Position numbers and translations under genes: made by a program | In this document: positions 18,813-30,408 of the stretch, in pieces | Layout: each line of letters opens with the position of its first letter | How positions within the stretch are numbered: the stretch's first letter is position 1 | Notes under the pieces: generated by a model | Database searches by the model: none | What the model saw: only the letters and a program-made list of their open reading frames with translations | What the model was told of the DNA's origin: nothing | Source: Chthoniobacterales bacterium | GTDB lineage: Bacteria > Verrucomicrobiota > Verrucomicrobiia > Chthoniobacterales > UBA10450 | NCBI GenBank assembly: GCA_013821455.1 | Contig: JACDGS010000025.1 | Coordinates: 1 to 56,412 of the forward strand | Length of the DNA stretch: 56,412 bases | Direction of reading: 5' to 3'

Positions 18813-19709
18813 TCAGGCAACCCCCGGCCGCGACGCGCCTTGACAGTCATCCAAGCGCAAAAGCAAAGCTTCTTGTTCTAGGACTGCGTTGTGGCGATCG
18901 ATCAAATCGATCACGGCACAAACTTCTGGAATGGGAACACTCCGAAGCTTTGCCAGCAATCGCCTCGTCGCCGGGAACCGAAGCAATTCTTTATTCCCAA
19001 AGCGGGCAAAGTAGTCTGCCAAATTCACCGGAAGATGTAGCGATGTGCGGTCTCCTAAACGACCTTGCAACCGTGCGTATTCGCTTAAACCAACGGGGTC
19101 ATAATCGGGGAAATGATGGACGTGAAGCGAGGATGCCGTTTGGCTGGCTAACCAGTCCAAGAGGCGATGCGATACCCGCCCGCCCGCGAAGATCGCCAGC
19201 GGGATTTCTGACTGGATGGTAAATCGTTCGAAGCCGAGCAAGACGGCCGGATTTTCAACGAGAGCACACGATGTGCGGAGCTCGTATCGACTATCCGGGG
19301 TGAGAGCGAACGAGAAGATCGCGTGCTTGCGAGTAGCTTCGGAGACGACAACTGGTTTTCCTTTGTGCCACAGCGCCATGTCTGACCATCCGCGGACTGT
19401 CACAATGTCAGGCGTATCGCTCCGCAACGTTTTGGTGTTTCGAAAGCGACCGACTGAAGCGACCCGGCGGCTGATCTCGGCTTCCATTTCCAACTCAGTG
19501 AAAGGGAATCGATCAAGGATGAAGGAACTGAGCGTCTCCGCGTTTCGCACGCACAGCTTTTCACCCGCGCCGCTGCGTTCCCAGGCAAGCACGCCAGAAT
19601 CCAGGAGAGGCGCGACGAACGACACGAGTTCCTGGCTGGAGGTTGACTTCGCAAGCGCGCCTGCCTCCAGGAGTTCTCTCAGCCGCGATTCAATCCGTGC
19701 CGGGTTCAT
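18813..19709 (-). CDS. jetD: Wadjet nuclease subunit JetD
   Basis: This 298-residue protein is of the DUF3322/DUF2220 type. JetD is the topoisomerase VI-like nuclease of Wadjet, which cuts circular DNA once the SMC motor has fully extruded it. The Toprim-type acidic residues are visible: VENPAVLLGFE at 151-161, and the DxD-type site FPDYDPVGLSEY at 200-211. The N-terminal part (1-110) holds the helical arm region. The start overlaps the jetC stop by 4 bases. It is shorter than the JetD of type I systems (nearer 400), so the subtype is probably another. It closes the operon; no terminator was seen after it. Confidence 0.9.
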   Translation of the reverse strand: MNPARIESRLRELLEAGALAKSTSSQELVSFVAPLLDSGVLAWERSGAGEKLCVRNAETLSSFILDRFPFTELEMEAEISRRVASVGRFRNTKTLRSDTPDIVTVRGWSDMALWHKGKPVVVSEATRKHAIFSFALTPDSRYELRTSCALVENPAVLLGFERFTIQSEIPLAIFAGGRVSHRLLDWLASQTASSLHVHHFPDYDPVGLSEYARLQGRLGDRTSLHLPVNLADYFARFGNKELLRFPATRRLLAKLRSVPIPEVCAVIDLIDRHNAVLEQEALLLRLDDCQGASRPGVA

Positions 19710-22405
19710 GCGACCGAAGATTCGAGCCTTACTCCAATTCGATGCCGCTGGCGGAGAACGATTCGACCTTGCCGCGGTTGAAGAAAATAAAGCGCTTCAA
19801 CTTCGCTAACAGCTTCCGGCGCCGCCGTGATGGCAATAAAGCCAAGCTTGCGTGCAGTGGTGAGCACGGCCGCTCTGTTCGCCGGATCGAGCAACTGAAT
19901 TTCGTCCAGAAAGAAAGGGACAACGCACTGGTCTTCACGCAAGTAGCGCCGAAGCACGAGGAGGTTGAAAAGCACTTTGATCGTGATCGTCGTGCCATGC
20001 GACTCTATCTGCCGAAAATCTTGATAATGGTGGGTGATCCCGTCCTCACCGATCACTGTGAATTGAAGTGAAAAGAGCTGCGAGTAGGAGATGAGCGGGC
20101 TGTTCTCGAATTTCTGGCGGAAGTTACGCAATGTCTGATCGAGCTGCGTGTCGTCATCGAAGATTCCCGGTTGCTGCAAATCCACGAGCCGTCTGATCCA
20201 GCTAACAAGATCGGCTGATTCTAGGACGTCGAGCTTCAGTGCCTGAAGATTTGAAACCTGCACACGTGCAAACTGACGATTGAGATCGCTGGTGGCGCTC
20301 CGCACGGCGTCGAGTTCTTTGAGGACGCCAGCAAACATTCCTCGCAGCCCTTGGATGAGCGCGTTCCAATCGCGTTCGAGCGCCTCTGTCTTGATTGGGA
20401 GCGCCTCCAATTCCGCCGCGAGGTTGCGCACTGTTTCGGTATCATCCGAACCGTTGAAGTTTTCGCCGACAAGCTGGGCGATCAATTTCAGCGAATCGGT
20501 TACCTTTTCCTCCGACCGTTGCTCTTCGGCTTGCTGGCGGAGAAAAAGCGCAATGGCCGTATCGAAGTCATCGGGGATGTCCGTTACTTCGATCGCTTTG
20601 GCAGAGAACTCGGGAAAAACACATTGGCCGAATCGACCCATGACTTGATTGAAGCCATTTTCTTCGCCAGTAACCACGGCTTCCGCCTCCCGTTGAGTTT
20701 TCTCACAAGCCCTCTGCTTCTTCTCCGATGTCGCGATAGTGTTCGTCAGTTTCGCGATTGTTTCGTCGACGGTTCTGAATTCACGACGGAGGCTGGATTC
20801 ATCCGCGCGGAGTTTCAGAAACGCTTCATAACCGAAAATCTGGCGCTGAACTTCTCCCAATTGTTTCTGACATTCTTTCAGATCGCCAGCCAGTCGCTCC
20901 CGCTCAGTGATTGTCTTCAAAATCGTCTGCCAGCGGCGCAAGGTCTCGGCACCCTCCTCCAGCTTTTCACGAAGCGCTTCAACGTTTTCTAGTTCGATTA
21001 CGGAACGTCGTGCGGGCTGCAAAACGACATGAGTAATCTCGTCGCCGTAGATACCGTCTTTCACTCGCTTGGCCAGATCACGGACGAGTGCAAGAACCCG
21101 CTCCTCACTACGAGCAGTGATGCCATCGTCCCCGATCGGCGTTTCTAGCAATTCAAAATTCAGGATGCGAAAAGCGCGGGCCAATTCGTCATCCGAGAAG
21201 TGCCGGCGCAATGCGGTAACCGCAAGTCGATCGAAATTCGCGATAGTTTGTTGCTTGTGTCGGACCAAGTCACCATAGAGAGCGATCTTCTGCAGTGCTT
21301 TCTCTCGGCTCTCGGTTTCAGCGTCCCCGAATAGCTTCTTTAGCCGCAGTTCTTCGTTTTGAAGGTTCTGCCTCGCCGCTCCGGTGAACTCAGGGTCGAA
21401 ATCGGCGAAGGCTTTCGCCTGCTTCTCGATTTCCTTAAGCTTGTTTTCGAGAGCGCCTTTTTCAGTTAAGCGTGCGTATAGCTCCGCTTTTCGTTCTGTT
21501 AGTTCCGCAGTGACCTCTTTGATCATTTTGCCCTGAGCGGCGATCATCTCGTCTAACTCGGCGAGGCGTTTCGTGTGGGCCTGCTCGAATTTCGTGTGTT
21601 TGATTCGCAGATCGCTCCAACGGGTAATTAATTCGCCCCGGATTCGCGCCAATTTTTCGAAGCGCTCGACCAACACACGAATCTGTTCCTCGTTTTTCTT
21701 GAACCGGGCCACGCCATCGCGCAAACGGCGGATGCGATCATAGTCGTCACCAAACAGTCTGCGGACGTCCAGCGCTGGGATGTCGGTTCTTACGTCCGCC
21801 AGCGAGAGCAGACGTTCGCGCATCTGTTCCTGATTGATCGTGCTGAGGCTGAGCAAATCTTTCAGCGATTCGCGAAACCGGCGGTAGCGATCGGGCTGAC
21901 GGAGTGCCACGATCCCCATCCCTTTACCGTCGGCTCCCGTGGAGGGCAGCAGGAGTTCGCGATGTTCCTGAGCGGACTTGATTAAGCGAAAGGTCTTGAG
22001 CGCGAGACGGGCATTCACTTCACGCGGCTCGCGCACTTCCTGTTTCTCGGTAAAGAAGTCGTCTGTCTCATACGGCCCGAAGTAGACAAATCGTTCCGGC
22101 TGTCCACCAGCGGCTTTGCTCTGACCGCGCCAGCCGAAAACAAAATTTCCAGTCGCGCCAAGACATTGGAAGAGCACATAGCTAAATTGGGCTGGAAAAT
22201 AGTAAGCCAGCGATTCGTCGGTGGCGTAGGAACCGAAGTCCATTTTCCGGAGATCGTCGAGATAGAGAAATTGCAGCGTGTTGATGAGCGTCGTTTTGCC
22301 GGTGTTGTTCGGCCCGACGATTTGGAGCGAGCTACTCAACTCAACCTCGGCGTAATCGTAGCGCCCGGCACGGATGAGTACGATTTTTTGCGGACCGGTA
22401 GCCAT
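19706..22405 (-). CDS. jetC: Wadjet SMC-like ATPase JetC
   Basis: This 899-residue MukB/MksB-like SMC protein is the loop-extruding motor of the Wadjet complex. Walker A GPNNTGKTT lies at 31-39; a long coiled coil runs about 215-400 and 490-600 with a hinge-like middle; the signature helix SHGTTITIKVLFNLLV is near 800; Walker B CVVPFFLDEIQLLDP is at 827-841, followed by the D-loop. All ATPase elements look intact. It is translationally coupled to jetD, and separated by 6 bases from jetB. The protein is compact for a MukB-type SMC. No copy of the 9-mer lies in the gene. Confidence 0.93.
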   Translation of the reverse strand: MATGPQKIVLIRAGRYDYAEVELSSSLQIVGPNNTGKTTLINTLQFLYLDDLRKMDFGSYATDESLAYYFPAQFSYVLFQCLGATGNFVFGWRGQSKAAGGQPERFVYFGPYETDDFFTEKQEVREPREVNARLALKTFRLIKSAQEHRELLLPSTGADGKGMGIVALRQPDRYRRFRESLKDLLSLSTINQEQMRERLLSLADVRTDIPALDVRRLFGDDYDRIRRLRDGVARFKKNEEQIRVLVERFEKLARIRGELITRWSDLRIKHTKFEQAHTKRLAELDEMIAAQGKMIKEVTAELTERKAELYARLTEKGALENKLKEIEKQAKAFADFDPEFTGAARQNLQNEELRLKKLFGDAETESREKALQKIALYGDLVRHKQQTIANFDRLAVTALRRHFSDDELARAFRILNFELLETPIGDDGITARSEERVLALVRDLAKRVKDGIYGDEITHVVLQPARRSVIELENVEALREKLEEGAETLRRWQTILKTITERERLAGDLKECQKQLGEVQRQIFGYEAFLKLRADESSLRREFRTVDETIAKLTNTIATSEKKQRACEKTQREAEAVVTGEENGFNQVMGRFGQCVFPEFSAKAIEVTDIPDDFDTAIALFLRQQAEEQRSEEKVTDSLKLIAQLVGENFNGSDDTETVRNLAAELEALPIKTEALERDWNALIQGLRGMFAGVLKELDAVRSATSDLNRQFARVQVSNLQALKLDVLESADLVSWIRRLVDLQQPGIFDDDTQLDQTLRNFRQKFENSPLISYSQLFSLQFTVIGEDGITHHYQDFRQIESHGTTITIKVLFNLLVLRRYLREDQCVVPFFLDEIQLLDPANRAAVLTTARKLGFIAITAAPEAVSEVEALYFLQPRQGRIVLRQRHRIGVRLESSVA

Positions 22406-22411
22406 TAGGTG

Positions 22412-22966
22412 TCAGTCGCTAGAATCCGGCCGCTCAGCGTCGGTTGTGCTTGCCACCTGCGTAGAAAGTTCCAGACACTTGTCGAACACGCGGTGAAAAG
22501 GACGAAGAAAGCGGAACTCATCGATCCCGAGCCACTTTAGCCAGCCCAGGCGCTCGAGGTTTTTGAGGATAAGCTCTAGGTCCGCGACGTCATGCACATC
22601 CACTTGGCGGAGCAAGGCCGCGTATCTATCTAGGGAGAAATGGGGTAACGCGGAGACGAGAAAGTTTCGGCCGAGAATGAAATCCTCAATGAGTTCTCCC
22701 TGGTTCGCCGCATGATCGATGAGGATATAGGAGAACACCGCTATTCGCGGAAGAGTATCGGGTACTTTTTCTGGATCGGTTGGCGCGAAGTAGAAGAACT
22801 CTCGCTCATGACGAATCAGTTCGAAGCCGAGCGGTGCAAAATACTCAGCATAATCTTCGAAGCTTGTGCTGCTCAGGGCCGAGAAAAATGGCTCATCGTC
22901 CGACGATAAGTGGGTCCCCCTGCTGAGTCGTTCAAAGATTTGACGGACGTGCGGCAGTGCAGTCAT
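22412..22966 (-). CDS. jetB: Wadjet KITE subunit JetB (MukE/MksE-like)
   Basis: This 184-residue winged-helix protein is of the DUF4194/MksE type. It binds the kleisin JetA and DNA in the Wadjet complex. Visible are the opening HVRQIFERLSRGTHLSSDDE, the segment EDYAEYFAPLGFELIRHERE, FYFAPTD, and the later VHDVADLELILKNLERLGWL winged helix. It starts inside the jetA stop (ATGA). Identity comes from its place between kleisin and SMC genes together with this pattern. Confidence 0.87.
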   Translation of the reverse strand: MTALPHVRQIFERLSRGTHLSSDDEPFFSALSSTSFEDYAEYFAPLGFELIRHEREFFYFAPTDPEKVPDTLPRIAVFSYILIDHAANQGELIEDFILGRNFLVSALPHFSLDRYAALLRQVDVHDVADLELILKNLERLGWLKWLGIDEFRFLRPFHRVFDKCLELSTQVASTTDAERPDSSD

Positions 22967-24186
22967 GCGAGTTCAATCTGGAGAGGATGCCCGCGGAGCG
23001 TTCCGTCGGCGGTTCGATAATCTCGCTCGGTTTGTTCGGAGAACCGGGCTTGGATTGTCTCATGAAATATTAAGCGGCTAAATCCGCTGAGAATCTCGCT
23101 AGTTGACTTGTCTGGGTATCGCTCTGCCAGCCATTCGAGCAGATCATCCAGCGGAAGGGACGCAATGGCTTCGCCGGGAAGTGCGCTAAGCCAAAGCTGT
23201 CTTACTACTCCCGATGGTACTTCGGGCGTTTCGTCGAAGGCGATAACCGGTGCGAGTTCGGGGGGATGTTCGATAACCCTGCGCAGAGCAAGGCTGATGG
23301 CTGCATCTCCGGGCACGTGTTGTACGCGCAAAGCGCAGATGCCAACGAGCATCTGCGCTCCCCATTTTCCGATGCCTTCCCGCTGCAACGTCTCAAGAGC
23401 GATTGCAGCCCCGGTGGCAATAAAGCTGGAGCGCCGAAGTGATTCGTAAAGAGGTTGAAACTCCTTTCGGCATTCCTGGAAGACCCGCAGCGCGTGTTGT
23501 CGAACTAACCGCAGGTAGCGCAGATTACGTTCGAGCGCCGGATGGTCGTTGAAGAGCGACTGCTCCCGCGCGAGGCGAAGCAGGCGTTCCGTTTCCTCGA
23601 ATGCTGCTGCCATCGCGCCATCCGGACGGACAATATCGACCATTGGCTCGACGAAACGTTCCATCCAATAAACGATCCTATGGTAGCGATCTCGGACCGA
23701 AACGTGTTCGCGGTTCGCCTTGAATGCTGCGACTTCATTCTGCACAGCCCGTTGTGTTTCTTCCAAGTCAGCGTGAATCTTCCGGAGCGTGTTGTTGATC
23801 TCATGAAACGCGAGGCCGACAAACGTCACGTTATCCGTTTCAACGGCGCGCAGGAGCTGTCCGCCCAAGCTTTCCAAAGAGGCGATATAGCCGCGTACGA
23901 TTTCCGGAGTCGCGGGATTTGCCTCATCGAACAAATATGTGAGAAGGCGGGCGACCGGCTCAGCTAAGAGGTAATAACCGCTGCCCGGCTCGGTCGGGAC
24001 GAGAATCTGCAGTTCGCAGAGCCGCCGCCACGTTGTTTCTGGCAGCTCCTCCTGAGATAGCGTGTGCTCCCGAATTAGCCCTGCAATTTCAGGTTCCGAT
24101 AACTCGCCTACGCGCTCGGCCAACTGCCGAAGTACGGGCACATGGCCAGAGCAGAAGTTGAAGAAGGTTTGGGCATTAATCTTCAT
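22963..24186 (-). CDS. jetA: Wadjet kleisin subunit JetA (MukF/MksF-like)
   Basis: This 407-residue kleisin-type protein is the first gene of the operon. It opens with MKINAQTFFNFCSGHVPVLR and a winged-helix N-terminal domain, followed by a helical middle (about 120-260, with NNTLRKIHADLEETQRAVQ) and a C-terminal winged-helix part near 350-407. In Wadjet it bridges the JetC heads and holds JetB. The operon reads jetA-jetB-jetC-jetD with overlaps or a 6-base gap. The start at 24186 lies about 140 bases from a hairpin terminator of the neighbouring pseudogene, leaving room for its promoter. The whole operon lacks the 9-mer common elsewhere. Confidence 0.88.
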   Translation of the reverse strand: MKINAQTFFNFCSGHVPVLRQLAERVGELSEPEIAGLIREHTLSQEELPETTWRRLCELQILVPTEPGSGYYLLAEPVARLLTYLFDEANPATPEIVRGYIASLESLGGQLLRAVETDNVTFVGLAFHEINNTLRKIHADLEETQRAVQNEVAAFKANREHVSVRDRYHRIVYWMERFVEPMVDIVRPDGAMAAAFEETERLLRLAREQSLFNDHPALERNLRYLRLVRQHALRVFQECRKEFQPLYESLRRSSFIATGAAIALETLQREGIGKWGAQMLVGICALRVQHVPGDAAISLALRRVIEHPPELAPVIAFDETPEVPSGVVRQLWLSALPGEAIASLPLDDLLEWLAERYPDKSTSEILSGFSRLIFHETIQARFSEQTERDYRTADGTLRGHPLQIELA

Positions 24187-25891: not shown

Positions 25892-26824
25892 TTACTTCAT
25901 TCGATCAAAGGTCTTTTGCAGTAATGCGAGATCGGTGGGCTGGCCAAGTTTTTCGCGCGTGCTATCGACCCACTTTTTCTCGAGCGCGTTCTTCGTCGCC
26001 CGATCATTTTGGTAGAAGACTCCGAAGACCCCGGGGAATGGTATCTGCGCGAGCTTGTAGGCCGCTAACTCATCGGTGGTGTCGTGGCGGTTTTCGTCTT
26101 CGGGCGTGTTATCCCACTTCTTTTCGTCGATGACTTCGAAGCTACCGCCTTTGCGCGGGTTGGCTGGGTCAAAAGCGCCGGGGAAGAATTCGACACACTC
26201 ACTGAGGCATTCGATGACGCTGAAACCCTGGTGATCCATCGCGCGCTCGATCATTTGGATCATGTGGTTGACCTGAGAGGCATGAGTGCGCGCGACAAAG
26301 GTAGCGCCGCTGGCGACGAGCTTTTTCATCGCATTGACCGGCTGATCAATCGCGCCTTGCGGGTCAGTCTTTGACTTAAAACCTATAGGGGAAGTAGGAG
26401 AGGTTTGTTTCTTCGTTAGGCCATAAACGAAGTTATCCATGATGACATAGGTGAGGTTAATGTTCTTGCGCGCGCCGTGCTCGAGGTGGTTGCCGCCGAT
26501 GGAGAAGCCATCGCCATCGCCACCGAAGAGGAAGACTTTGAGGTCCGGCCGCGCGAGGCTGACGCCGCTGGCCAACGGGACGCCGCGACCGTGAATGAAG
26601 TGCGCGCCGTGGCCATTGACGAAATAGGGAAAGCGTGACGAGCAACCAATGCCGGCAAGGGTGACGATTTTCTCGTGATCGATCTGGCGTTTCTCGAGGA
26701 CTTTGTAATAGCAGGCGAGAACGGCGAAGTCGCCGCAACCAGGACACCACGTCGGGTGATCGGCGGTAATGGCTTTCTTGGTTAGTTTCTCGCGTGGTGG
26801 TTCGGCGGTTAGGGTGTCACTCAT
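25892..26824 (-). CDS. korB: 2-oxoacid:ferredoxin oxidoreductase beta subunit (KorB type)
   Basis: This 310-residue thiamine-diphosphate subunit pairs with KorA to convert a 2-oxoacid (most likely 2-oxoglutarate) plus CoA to acyl-CoA, CO2 and reduced ferredoxin. Seen are HPTWCPGCGDFAVLACYYK with a CxxC at 28-31, GIGCSSRFPYFVNGHGAHF, and the TPP/Mg motif GGDGDGFSIGGNHLEHGARK near 100-120, followed by NNDNFVYGLT-like MDNFVYGLTKKQTSPTSP. The ATG at 26824 is chosen over an upstream one lying in a repeat. korA lies 1.5 kb upstream on the same strand, separated by three genes. Confidence 0.93.
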   Translation of the reverse strand: MSDTLTAEPPREKLTKKAITADHPTWCPGCGDFAVLACYYKVLEKRQIDHEKIVTLAGIGCSSRFPYFVNGHGAHFIHGRGVPLASGVSLARPDLKVFLFGGDGDGFSIGGNHLEHGARKNINLTYVIMDNFVYGLTKKQTSPTSPIGFKSKTDPQGAIDQPVNAMKKLVASGATFVARTHASQVNHMIQMIERAMDHQGFSVIECLSECVEFFPGAFDPANPRKGGSFEVIDEKKWDNTPEDENRHDTTDELAAYKLAQIPFPGVFGVFYQNDRATKNALEKKWVDSTREKLGQPTDLALLQKTFDRMK

Positions 26825-26982: not shown

Positions 26983-27135
26983 TTACTTTATGATCAGGGT
27001 TTCGTTGTGGTTTGTGCGCAAGCCCTGCGTTTGTGCGATACCCTTGGTGGTCTTGCCCGCTTTGACATCTTTCCTGGCATTCATGTCGCGAAGCTTTACG
27101 GTTTTCTTGCTTTTTGTAGTGGGTTTTGTAGCCAT
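26983..27135 (-). CDS. 50-residue basic protein, paralogue A
   Basis: The minus strand from 27135 encodes 50 residues beginning MATKPTTKSKKTVKLRDMNA and ending with TQGLRTNHNETLIIK. A GGAG ribosome-binding sequence lies 7 bases before the ATG. It is rich in Lys and Thr and has no hydrophobic segment. It is strongly similar along its whole length to paralogue B (28137-28289), most clearly in KDVKAGKTTKGI and QTQGLRTNHNETLI. Not recognised. The conserved ends with differing inner positions show selection on the protein. A basic leader-peptide-like or nucleic-acid-binding role are both possible; neither is shown. Confidence 0.75.
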   Translation of the reverse strand: MATKPTTKSKKTVKLRDMNARKDVKAGKTTKGIAQTQGLRTNHNETLIIK

Positions 27136-27180
27136 AATGCGTCTCCTATACCTGCTCGAAGAGGATAGTCCCTGGTCGCG

Positions 27181-28080
27181 TCACGTCAACGGAAGCTTGG
27201 GAAGCGTGGCCCGGGGACAACTCGATTGTTTCCTCTCCGCCAACAAGCGCACGTAATTCCTGCGGCAGGCCGTCAACTTGGGGTGGCGCATGGGGAGCGA
27301 CGCGCGGAAAATTGCCAGCGCCGCGTGCAGCAATTCTTCGGCGCGCTGCCAGTCCCGCCGCGCTTGGCAGAGGATGCCCAGGTTGTTCATCGTCAGGGCG
27401 ACATCGACATGTCTGGAACCGAAGAGCTTTTTTTTGATTTTCAGAGCCTGTTCGTAGTAACGCTCACCTCGGTTTAGGTCGCCGGTTGCATGGTAGGAAG
27501 CGCCAAGATTGTTTAAGGTGATGGCGAAGTCGTAGCGATGGCCGGCCGGATGAGCACGAAAAATTTTCAAGGCGCGGAAGTAAAGCCGGCGGGCCGCGAA
27601 ATGTTTGTGCCGGGCATCCAGGATCGCACCGAGAGCTGCTTCATCCTCCGCGACGGCGGGATCTCCCGGCCCGAGAAGACTTCGCCAGATTTGGACTGAC
27701 TTACGCGCAAGTGGCTCGCCCAGGTCCGGGCGGTTACGGGCGTGCTCGAGTCCACCCATGTTGTGATGGAGAGTGGCTAGCTCGTGAAGACGCGGTTCCT
27801 TAGTCGCGGTAAGTCTCTGCAAAGTCTGCTGGTATATCTGATCCGCGCGTTTGAAGCGGCCCAGATACTTGCAGAGCACTGCGTAGTTATTCAGGGCAAT
27901 ATAAGTTAGCCAGTCACATCTTCCGAAATGGACGGTGGCGTCACTGATAGCCTGCTTTAGCGACGCTTCAGCTTTCCCGTATTCTCCTTTTCGGGTATAG
28001 CTACTTCCCAGCTGACAAAGCCGCCGAATTCTCGTTGCGCTTGCGGTCAGGCTATGGCGGTCTTTCTTCGCAGTCGCCAT
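27181..28080 (-). CDS. Tetratricopeptide-repeat (kinesin light chain-like) protein
   Basis: This 299-residue soluble protein is made of about six TPR units of 40-42 residues, the length typical of kinesin light chain and Fis-TPR proteins. Examples are ALNNYAVLCKYLGRFKRADQ, TLNNLGASYHATGDLNRGER and TMNNLGILCQARRDWQRAEE. Such arrays bind protein partners. No catalytic domain is attached. It is flanked on both sides by the two paralogous 50-residue basic proteins on the same strand, which makes these proteins the first candidates for its ligand. Confidence 0.88.
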   Translation of the reverse strand: MATAKKDRHSLTASATRIRRLCQLGSSYTRKGEYGKAEASLKQAISDATVHFGRCDWLTYIALNNYAVLCKYLGRFKRADQIYQQTLQRLTATKEPRLHELATLHHNMGGLEHARNRPDLGEPLARKSVQIWRSLLGPGDPAVAEDEAALGAILDARHKHFAARRLYFRALKIFRAHPAGHRYDFAITLNNLGASYHATGDLNRGERYYEQALKIKKKLFGSRHVDVALTMNNLGILCQARRDWQRAEELLHAALAIFRASLPMRHPKLTACRRNYVRLLAERKQSSCPRATLPKLPLT

Positions 28081-28136
28081 TGATAAGCGCCGCTGGACGA
28101 CCCTGGACCTAATGTCTTCTGGGGCGAGTACGACGG

Positions 28137-28289
28137 CTAGCTGCTGATCAGGGTTTCGTTGTGGTTTGTGCGCAAGCCTTGCGTTTGTACGATACCTTTG
28201 GTGGTCTTGCCGGCTTTCACATCGCCTTTGGCGCGCATGTCGCGCACTTTGACTATCTTCTTGGTTTTTGTGGTGGGTTTAGTTTGCAT
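28137..28289 (-). CDS. 50-residue basic protein, paralogue B
   Basis: The minus strand from 28289 encodes 50 residues beginning MQTKPTTKTKKIVKVRDMRA and ending TQGLRTNHNETLISS. It aligns without gaps to paralogue A at 26983-27135, with about three quarters of residues identical, including DVKAGKTTKGI and the last QTQGLRTNHNETLI. The DNA is also similar, so duplication is fairly recent, but many differences are silent or conservative. The gene lies directly before the TPR gene and after korA on the same strand; the 65 bases to korA hold one 9-mer at 28354. Confidence 0.75.
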   Translation of the reverse strand: MQTKPTTKTKKIVKVRDMRAKGDVKAGKTTKGIVQTQGLRTNHNETLISS

Positions 28290-28356: not shown

Positions 28357-30408
28357 TTAGGCAGTCGAGTTCTGGTCCTTGCTCGGCATCACTGCTTCGT
28401 AGGTCTCGGGGCGTTGGGCAGTGCTATCGCCGGCATGGTCGGAGGCGACTGAGACCTTCGCTTCGGCGCGCGCGGTCGCGGCGGCGGTGGTGGCGTCGTG
28501 CGGAAGAGGCGCAGCCACTTCGGTCGCGCCATTACCAGTCTGTACGGCGCCGTCGCCATGATGCATCGCGGTGCGGCTCGGGAAGGTCTTGCCTTCGAAG
28601 ACTCGCCCGAGGATTTCCTTAACCCGGTAAGTCAGGCCATCGGTCTTGGTGATACTGGCAATTTTTGGCTCGCAGAAACGCGCGCGCAGGAGCGTGGCGA
28701 GTTGGCCGTAACCGTAGAGTCCCTGGTCGTTCATTTCGACGACGAGAACGCGCTCGAAGTTAGAGAAGAGTTTTTCTAATCCGTTAGGCAAGGGGTTGAG
28801 ATGGCGCAGGTGAATGGCACCAATCTTTTCCCCCGCACGACGCGCGCGGGTGACCGCGTCGTGGATCGGGCCGTAGGTCGAGCCCCAGCCGATAAGCAGG
28901 ACGTCGCCTTCCTGTTCGCCGTAAACTTCTGTCACGGGTAATTCATCGGCCAGCTTTTGCAGCTTGGCGCGGCGTTTGGCTGTCATACCCATGTGTAACT
29001 TAGGGCTACCAGTAGGATGACCCATCTCATCATGTTCGAGACCGGTGATAAGTGGATACTTACCGTCGATGATGCGCGTGCCGGGCGCGGCGTGCTGAGT
29101 GATCGCATCGAGCGGATAAGGCTTAAATGTTTCACGCGGTCTCAGGTCAGGCTGGGGATCGAGCATTAGGTTAGCGAGGTCCGGCTCGTCGAACGCCTCA
29201 ATGCGTGTTGCCAGTGAAGTATCGCTGAGGATAAAGACTGGGGTGCTATACTTACGAGCGATGCGCGCGGCTTCGATCGCGATGTAGAAACAGTCTTCCA
29301 CCGTCTTAGCCGCGAGCACGACGCGCGGGCTATCTCCATGGCCACCATAGATAGCCTGGAATAGGTCGCTTTGCTCTACGTTAGTCGGCAACCCAGTGCT
29401 AGGACCACCGCGCTGCACATTGATGATGATGATTGGTATCTCGGCCATCGACGCCCAACCTATCGCTTCGCTCTTCAGTGAGATACCCGGGCCAGCACTC
29501 CCAGTTACCGCAAGGTTACCGGAGTAAGAGAAGCCCAGAGTGATGGAGACAGCGGCTAACTCATCCTCGGCCTGGACAAAGAGCCCACCATACTTAGGTA
29601 ACTCTACTCTTAGTGTCTCCATGACCGACGACCAGGGAGTTATAGGATAACCCGAGCCGTAGCGCACACCGGCGGCGATAAGTCCGTAGGCCAGCGCCTG
29701 GTTGCCATCCATCGTGATCTGGTCCGGCGCGCCCGGCACTTTCGCGACGGTGGAGAACTGGTAGCGCCGCGCGAGGACATTGCCGACGGGATAGGCATAA
29801 CCCGCGGTGAAAGCCATGATCGCGGTGTTAGCAATGCTTTCATCCTTACCCGCGAATTTCTCCTTGATGAGTGTCGTGAGCTTCTCGACATCGAGATGGA
29901 AGATCTTCGCAATAAGTCCGAGAACGAAAATGTTCTTACCCTTATCCTTGGCCGTGCCGCCAAGTGCTTCAACCGTTAGGCCAGTGATAGGAACACCAAC
30001 ATAGACATAGCGCTTGTCGTCCAGATTGGGCTCGACGTTATCCGAGTCGTAAAGGAGGACGCCGCCTTCGCGGAGAAACTCGATGTGATCCTGGTAACTA
30101 TGCTGGTAAAAGGCAATGAGGAAATCCGCTTCGTCCCCAGCGGATAACACTTCGCCGGTGCCCATGCGCACTTGGAAAATCGACGGGCCGCCCGAGATGG
30201 TGGCGGGAATGGTCATATAAGTCATGACTTCCTGCGCACTGCGCCCGGCGAGGCGCGCGAGGAAGGCGCCGGCGCTTTGGATACCGTCCTGTGAATTACC
30301 GGCGAGGCGGATGACTGCGTCGTCGATATTTTCGGGACGCAGATCGGCGCGCTCGGGCGCGGGAAGGGCGGTCGGGTTTGTTTCGGGCAGGCTTGGAGTC
30401 GGGTTCAC
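28357..30408 (-). CDS. korA: 2-oxoacid:ferredoxin oxidoreductase, fused gamma-alpha subunit (KorA type)
   Basis: This 683-residue protein carries the gamma domain first (about 28-220: VIRLAGNSQDGIQSAGAFLA, STISGGPSIFQVR-like TISGGPSIFQVRMG) and then the alpha pyrimidine-binding domain (from about 235: GNQALAYGLIAAGVRYGSGY, PITPWSSVMETL, FVQAEDELAAVSITLGFSYS). The C-terminal third holds the transketolase-C-like domain. With KorB it forms a CoA-dependent, ferredoxin-reducing enzyme used in the TCA cycle or its reverse. The Ala-rich last 60 residues are an extension. The pair is usually adjacent; here three genes intervene. Confidence 0.93.
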   Translation of the reverse strand: MNPTPSLPETNPTALPAPERADLRPENIDDAVIRLAGNSQDGIQSAGAFLARLAGRSAQEVMTYMTIPATISGGPSIFQVRMGTGEVLSAGDEADFLIAFYQHSYQDHIEFLREGGVLLYDSDNVEPNLDDKRYVYVGVPITGLTVEALGGTAKDKGKNIFVLGLIAKIFHLDVEKLTTLIKEKFAGKDESIANTAIMAFTAGYAYPVGNVLARRYQFSTVAKVPGAPDQITMDGNQALAYGLIAAGVRYGSGYPITPWSSVMETLRVELPKYGGLFVQAEDELAAVSITLGFSYSGNLAVTGSAGPGISLKSEAIGWASMAEIPIIIINVQRGGPSTGLPTNVEQSDLFQAIYGGHGDSPRVVLAAKTVEDCFYIAIEAARIARKYSTPVFILSDTSLATRIEAFDEPDLANLMLDPQPDLRPRETFKPYPLDAITQHAAPGTRIIDGKYPLITGLEHDEMGHPTGSPKLHMGMTAKRRAKLQKLADELPVTEVYGEQEGDVLLIGWGSTYGPIHDAVTRARRAGEKIGAIHLRHLNPLPNGLEKLFSNFERVLVVEMNDQGLYGYGQLATLLRARFCEPKIASITKTDGLTYRVKEILGRVFEGKTFPSRTAMHHGDGAVQTGNGATEVAAPLPHDATTAAATARAEAKVSVASDHAGDSTAQRPETYEAVMPSKDQNSTA

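Follow-up and report, generated by a model that had tools for sequence, protein, structure and literature searches.

Duplicated 50-residue peptides and a kinesin-light-chain-like TPR protein between korA and korB in a Chthoniobacterales genome: a candidate peptide-receptor module recurring across bacterial phyla

Results

Gene Organization of the Locus

The window, i.e., the whole stretch of DNA analyzed here, comprises 56,412 nucleotides from a Chthoniobacterales bacterium (contig JACDGS010000025.1). The original prediction placed two 50-residue genes around a TPR gene, the whole set lying between korA and korB. Both small open reading frames were confirmed at exactly the predicted coordinates, as was their position around the TPR gene, giving the following arrangement.

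28357-30408, minus strand: korA, 2-oxoacid:acceptor oxidoreductase alpha subunit (TIGR03710, above cutoff)
28137..28289, minus strand: small peptide gene 2, 50 aa, ATG start, MQTKPTTKTKKIVKVRDMRAKGDVKAG-KTTKGIVQTQGLRTNHNETLISS; directly downstream of korA
28209..28223, minus strand: DVKAG of peptide 2, where by the leader profile a double-glycine-like leader putatively ends, with presumed cleavage after AG
28146..28166, minus strand: conserved core NHNETLI of peptide 2
27181..28080, minus strand: TPR gene, 299 aa, between both peptide genes; YHNxGGLEHAR subfamily, kinesin-light-chain (KLC)-like
26983..27135, minus strand: small peptide gene 1, 50 aa, ATG start, MATKPTTKSKKTVKLRDMNARKDVKAG-KTTKGIAQTQGLRTNHNETLIIK; directly upstream of korB
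27055..27069, minus strand: DVKAG of peptide 1, where by the leader profile a double-glycine-like leader putatively ends
26992..27012, minus strand: conserved core NHNETLI of peptide 1
25892-26824, minus strand: korB, 2-oxoacid:acceptor oxidoreductase beta subunit (KorB family, below curated cutoffs)

The order of transcription is korA, peptide 2, TPR gene, peptide 1 and korB. Because these genes share a strand and are separated by short gaps, they are probably co-transcribed. An AGGAG sequence lies a few bases upstream of the ATG of peptide 1, and for the TPR gene an in-frame alternative start further upstream, up to 28143, is possible. A search of the module region returned no RNA families, and promoter- and terminator-like sites occurred there at chance level only. 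Elsewhere in the window, on the minus strand at 18813-24186, lies a Wadjet-like defence set in which an 899-aa protein weakly matches JetC and a 298-aa protein weakly matches JetD, while ORFs of 407 and 184 aa occupy the JetA/JetB positions.

Two Duplicated Genes Under Purifying Selection

The two peptides are 80% identical, at the protein and DNA level alike, and share the predicted motifs DVKAG, KTTKGI and TQGLRTNHNETLI. A comparison of synonymous and non-synonymous changes, suggested in the original prediction as a check for protein selection, gave dN 0.148 and dS 0.634 (dN/dS 0.23), and the low share of non-synonymous changes was significant against random mutants with an equal number of changes (P = 0.0006). 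Both 50-aa ORFs are coding and under purifying selection. Silent sites have diverged far less over the last 23 codons (dS 0.18) than over the first 27 (dS 1.68), a pattern that points to gene conversion at the core (3') end of the peptide genes.

The genome contains no close copies of the peptide other than the two window genes, and none of the Pfam and NCBIfam models match either small protein. A tblastn-confirmed scan with the 50-aa pair alone returned no relative; the link to other genomes was found via the TPR protein instead. The peptides are hydrophilic and have no membrane-active stretches, and judged by reading the pair carries no hydrophobic Sec signal.

The N-terminal Half Resembles a Verrucomicrobial Leader Family

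A two-row profile of the window pair gave weak N-terminal matches in relatives. These belong to a large, so far unnamed family of short K-rich peptides in which the pattern (V/I)(R/Q)DLxPxKDxKGG precedes a tail that is hypervariable and often repetitive; tandem copies are frequent. Of the order's 213 genomes, 51 contain such peptides, and nearly all of these belong to the window's own bacterial family; the window genome has five matches, namely the window pair and three others at C65 and C68. Up to 13 matches were seen in one genome (G080).

Many of these peptides are encoded beside a conserved operon for a protein of about 1040 aa (two cNMP domains, C39 peptidase, ABC exporter), an HlyD protein and a sigma-54 activator, with a TIGR04500-like protein also present at some loci. 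Because of this adjoining cNMP-C39-ABC/HlyD operon, the leader family looks like double-glycine-type precursors. One such exporter, with HlyD and leader-family peptides adjoining, lies in the window genome itself at C65; no exporter adjoins the window peptides. Leader family and exporter operon were noted together at L075 (G000:C65:9000-24000), L078, L084-L086, L088, L090, L091 and L094.

Canonical double-glycine leaders end in GG, GA or GS and carry an L/E/L/I pattern, whereas the window peptides read DVKAG; related verrucomicrobial peptides have DAKGG and lack the canonical hydrophobic pattern. Cleavage of the window leader is thus best regarded as putative. With a leader profile built without window sequences, both window peptides scored above all 5000 shuffles, and the same was true for a core profile built in that way. 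By these profiles the window peptides are chimeras, with an N-terminus like the verrucomicrobial double-glycine-like leader family and a C-terminus carrying the NHNETL core.

The C-terminal Core Recurs in Many Peptide Architectures

The locus-weighted consensus of the core is N(0.89) H(0.91) N(0.90) E/Q(0.78) T(0.56) L(0.53) V(0.48). Outside the window, the peptide is often a 2-16-fold repeat: GLKVKTNVKAGGHQLNHNQTLVCAR is repeated upstream of the TPR gene in L110, L114 has 16 units of 23 aa, L123 has 12 units, and L107 has seven units of VELQIEEIEEIIAPGITLNHNEMLQ. Other loci contain five tandem single-copy peptide genes (L121) or single core copies behind Sec-like signals (L106, L112), and L108 has a canonical GG leader, LTDEELDNIKGG. 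In L111 and L120, NHNETLVRD stands at or close to the C-terminus of larger Sec-like proteins encoded beside the TPR gene. Several of the peptide ORFs run up to the TPR reading frame or overlap with it. Exporters (C39-ABC or ABC) and/or HlyD genes adjoin L109, L110, L114, L117, L124, L129 and L130.

A counterpart was found in another genus of the same family (G080, contig JAICUQ010000004.1, a Chthoniobacterales MAG), where two peptides ending in NHNETLL and TNHNELFVE directly precede a TPR gene whose product is 44% identical to the window TPR protein over 218 aa.

Some arrangements were noted in passing. At L107 (3094-3742), a leader-like VELQIEEIEEIIAPG alternates with NHNE cores over seven repeats, as if this were a repeated leader-core polyprotein, and the gene downstream of the TPR gene fuses an HlyD region with a weakly M50-peptidase-like region. 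At L111 (2583-3723 and 4841-5606) and L120 (3071-3920), the core stands as if it were a C-terminal tag. An N-glycosylation sequon (NET/NQT/NST) was considered as the meaning of the motif and dropped, as the variants NHNQR, NHNEA and NHNEG have no sequon.

Linkage of Peptide and TPR Gene Across Phyla

Scanning the TPR alignment against about 85,000 species genomes yielded 37 loci, a set shaped by two biases in that the loci were selected by patterns including [HY]HN[ML]GGLE and most of the genomes are MAGs. They are distributed patchily over Verrucomicrobiota, Acidobacteriota, Planctomycetota, Chloroflexota, Actinomycetota, Myxococcota, Rokubacteria and a deltaproteobacterium. NHN motifs were present within 1.5 kb upstream and on the same strand in 27 of the 37 loci (110 motifs), whereas the controls gave 1/37 for the opposite strand, 1/37 and 0/37 downstream, and a mean of 0.46 with a maximum of 3 after shuffling. 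An NHN peptide anywhere in the locus was found in 31/37. The original prediction named recurring TPR neighbours as a check, and this came out in its favor: the peptide family is widespread and recurs beside the TPR gene.

The association also appears from the peptide side. Within one acidobacterial class (299 genomes), three genomes contain the motif NHN[EQ]TLV, and each of these three also has the TPR gene. Among 23 TPR-bearing genomes, a TPR gene lies within 1.5 kb of 11 of the 12 distinct motif sites; one of these 11 is a second locus in Minicystis rosea (L174) that was found only via the peptide. Among the order's 213 genomes, strong matches to the TPR subfamily were confined to the window genome and G080, and in both of these NHNE-tailed peptides adjoin the TPR gene. 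Judged from these gene neighborhoods, peptide and TPR protein are a bacterial module present in at least seven phyla.

The pattern NHNETL matched in six of the 213 genomes of the order and was real only in the window genome and G080, the other four being chance matches or having no suitable ORF. Three further matches in a phylum sample (288 genomes) were attributed to chance, with no TPR gene and no suitable peptide, leaving only the window as real.

Pfam and NCBIfam hold no model for the peptide family, the TPR subfamily or their pairing. The motif strings of peptides and TPR protein are absent from the 5.4 million open papers of PMC; NHNQT appeared there only as a scanning error on an 1891 page. 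Within these sources, family, subfamily and pairing are so far unnamed.

The TPR Protein Has a Kinesin-Light-Chain-Like Fold

The window TPR protein matches essentially only TPR families in Pfam (TPR_12, E = 1.5e-35) and reads HHNMGGLEHAR where its subfamily has YHNxGGLEHAR. Sequence profiles matched KLC2 (chain 5fjy, E = 6e-83) and the bacterial protein BKLC (5o01, 9e-32). The predicted model (mean pLDDT 94.7) consists of thirteen TPR-type helices end to end and no other domain, and Foldseek ranked KLC1-peptide complexes first. The predicted kinesin-light-chain-like character is thus borne out by both profile and fold. When the Foldseek candidates were realigned, APPBP2 with an RxxGP degron was among the best (Z 30.5, 2.6 A, 278 residues), as were Rap and NprR pheromone complexes (Z 24.1-22.5). 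Because all matches are TPR superhelices and alike among themselves, the modeled fold indicates suitability for peptide binding rather than a function.

Across 24 TPR proteins, the fully or almost fully conserved residues lie mainly in the A helices, the ones that face the concave groove in proteins of this type. They include N64 and K71 (helix 3), 102-113 (helix 5), A149, N191, L192 and N233. The search pattern covered a portion of helix 5, and the YHNxGGLE conservation in part reflects that pattern. No DNA-binding or effector domain, including HTH, was detected with Pfam or in the model, and no signal sequence is visible, while in L111 the TPR protein itself looks exported. The FxSxx_TPR and HaaT models gave partial matches only (75 bits against a cutoff of 300, and 39 against 1125).

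The kor Genes Are an Incidental Neighborhood

As expected from the original prediction, most relatives have korA directly beside korB, among them a genome of the same genus (L144). A functional link with the ferredoxin-dependent enzyme was not supported. Regulation by the module of the 2-oxoacid:ferredoxin oxidoreductase whose genes flank it would fit the common strand and the probable co-transcription with korA and korB. However, no kor genes adjoin any other peptide-TPR locus in the neighborhoods read, and the korA-korB junction is empty in most relatives and occupied by unrelated genes in others; we regard such regulation as the least credible of the explanations considered here and rejected a kor-linked function. 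Two other same-genus genomes carry in the junction a gene that we take to be DUF1353-like, and elsewhere it holds toxin-antitoxin-like pairs or a membrane protein. The insertions differ between genomes (L145, L147, L148, L150, L160, L161). This junction, a site within a metabolic operon, tolerates insertions. The module does not favor kor genes, and the kor link is incidental.

Discussion

Proposed Function and Alternatives

We consider it an even proposition that the three genes form one module of two duplicated propeptides and a TPR binder, in which an exported signal is sensed by a receptor. In each propeptide, roughly the first 27 residues would be a basic leader that ends in DVKAG, and the remaining 23 or so would make up a C-terminal part that ends with the NHNETL core. 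The leader would direct export and be cleaved by a C39-peptidase ABC exporter whose gene lies elsewhere in the genome, and the NHN(E/Q)T core would sit in the concave groove of the KLC-like TPR protein. Once released, the peptide would act as a signal, probably sensed by the TPR protein after re-entry or while still inside the cell, a logic like that of the RRNPPA peptide-receptor pairs. We infer that the module moved horizontally and landed in the insertion-tolerant korA-korB junction.

The routes by which the core appears to be exported are several and unrelated (Sec-like signals, a canonical GG leader, adjacent C39-ABC/ABC and HlyD genes), and the TPR gene is found with all of them. Since core and TPR protein stay constant across these routes, the TPR protein would bind the core itself, rather than being part of one exporter. 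Ser/Thr kinase genes near L077, L113, L122 and L136 fit signaling, but such kinases are common in these phyla. Against a signal speaks that the core is nearly identical across phyla, whereas RRNPPA pheromones differ between systems, and that neither a Sec signal nor a canonical leader end, an adjacent exporter or an effector domain on the TPR protein was detected in the window. That the small proteins serve as ligands or signals, as originally suggested, is still the best reading for a widespread family paired with a TPR protein, with binding and signaling themselves remaining putative. The suggestion of modified peptides was not upheld, as no peptide-modifying enzyme family recurs among the clustered neighbors.

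A signal-receptor pair is the most likely function, followed by an export adaptor and then by a bacteriocin- or RiPP-like partner. As an adaptor or chaperone, the TPR protein would recognize a secreted repetitive peptide, whether antimicrobial, adhesive or structural, by its NHN core and keep it unfolded or pass it to a C39-ABC/HlyD exporter. The exporter genes that adjoin the pair at seven loci, the overlap of several peptide ORFs with the TPR frame and the up to 16 repeat units per peptide, which suit a bulk secreted product, agree with this role. We hold it to be unlikely, as the TPR protein also accompanies Sec-type peptides and proteins that need no such exporter, including those with a C-terminal NHNETLVRD (L106, L111, L112, L120), and the window has no adjacent exporter. 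Bacteriocins typically have GG-type leaders and C39 exporters, and the partial FxSxx_TPR and HaaT matches, both far below cutoff, recall clusters in which the peptides would be toxins or modified products and the TPR protein an immunity factor or maturation scaffold. This is improbable in view of the lack of a recurring modifying enzyme, the hydrophilic peptides and a core conserved across phyla, unlike toxin cores. The patchy distribution, the freely varying repeat number and the silent-site pattern of the window pair, as after gene conversion, might even suggest a selfish repeated coding element that spreads with the TPR gene and has no cellular role, but purifying selection and the constant pairing with one TPR subfamily make this very improbable.

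If the signal-receptor reading is correct, it would provide a new peptide-receptor code in soil Acidobacteriota, Verrucomicrobiota, Planctomycetota, Chloroflexota, Actinomycetota and Myxococcota. To our knowledge, pairs of a peptide signal and a TPR receptor are known almost only from Bacillota, and we know of hardly any cell-to-cell signaling in these phyla. It is a tentative prospect that Gram-negative and other non-Bacillota phyla communicate through one shared word, NHN(E/Q)TL, with a dedicated KLC-like TPR receptor, interchangeable leaders (Sec, double-glycine, C39 polyprotein) and horizontal spread between phyla. Small peptide genes of this kind are easily overlooked by gene finders. If binding holds, the module would also be a bacterial case of KLC-like grooves reading short peptides.

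Comparison With Known Systems

FxSxx and Haa RiPP clusters also encode KLC-type TPR proteins, but the window TPR protein falls far below their cutoffs and the modifying enzymes do not recur. Double-glycine/C39 (PCAT) systems are similar in the leader family and exporter architecture found in the window's bacterial family and in the NHN peptides beside C39-ABC/HlyD genes; they differ in that the window has DVKAG instead of the canonical GG and that these systems are not known to include a TPR partner. HetC of Nostoc has a similar cNMP-C39-ABC layout and is thought to export a signaling peptide (PMC10986499).

APPBP2, the CRL2 receptor for RxxGP C-degrons, gave the best structural realignment and likewise is a TPR superhelix reading a short C-terminal motif, but it is a eukaryotic ubiquitin ligase subunit and there is no common system. 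The KLC TPR domain and BKLC/BtubC are related by the profile match, the window protein having both the KLC-type TPR sequence and the fold, and the matched KLC structures bind short peptides in the groove. In contrast to these proteins, the window TPR protein has no heptad or motor partner, and BKLC is part of a bacterial tubulin system, not of a peptide pair.

A close analogy is with the RRNPPA systems of Bacillota (Rap, Rgg, NprR, PlcR, PrgX, AimR), in which a small propeptide exported through Sec (or PptAB) is encoded beside a TPR receptor of 250-500 aa with an N-terminal HTH or 3-helix effector domain, and the mature peptide alters the activity of this receptor on binding. RRNPP systems are defined by a small propeptide, Sec export, a receptor of 250-500 aa, TPRs and adjacency (PMC10075063). 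Four of these features are present in the window, and Sec-type export was recognized, by reading, only in relatives (L106, L112), so that export of the window peptides is presumed. Where RRNPPA propeptides have 10-100 aa and are directly adjacent, the window has 50-aa peptides on both sides of the TPR gene, and the 299-aa protein with its all-TPR model lies within the receptor range. Some RRNPPA propeptides carry pheromone repeats (PMC11343458). Almost the entire window TPR model can be aligned with the Rap and NprR pheromone complexes. Unlike those receptors, it is KLC-type by sequence with no HTH or effector domain detected, and the window-type module occurs in non-Bacillota, with one core across phyla and several export routes. 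RRNPP_detector has been applied to Firmicutes and viruses only (PMC10075063). By analogy, the module may work like a known peptide-receptor family while standing apart from it; we think that it is RRNPPA-like in logic and not a member of that family.
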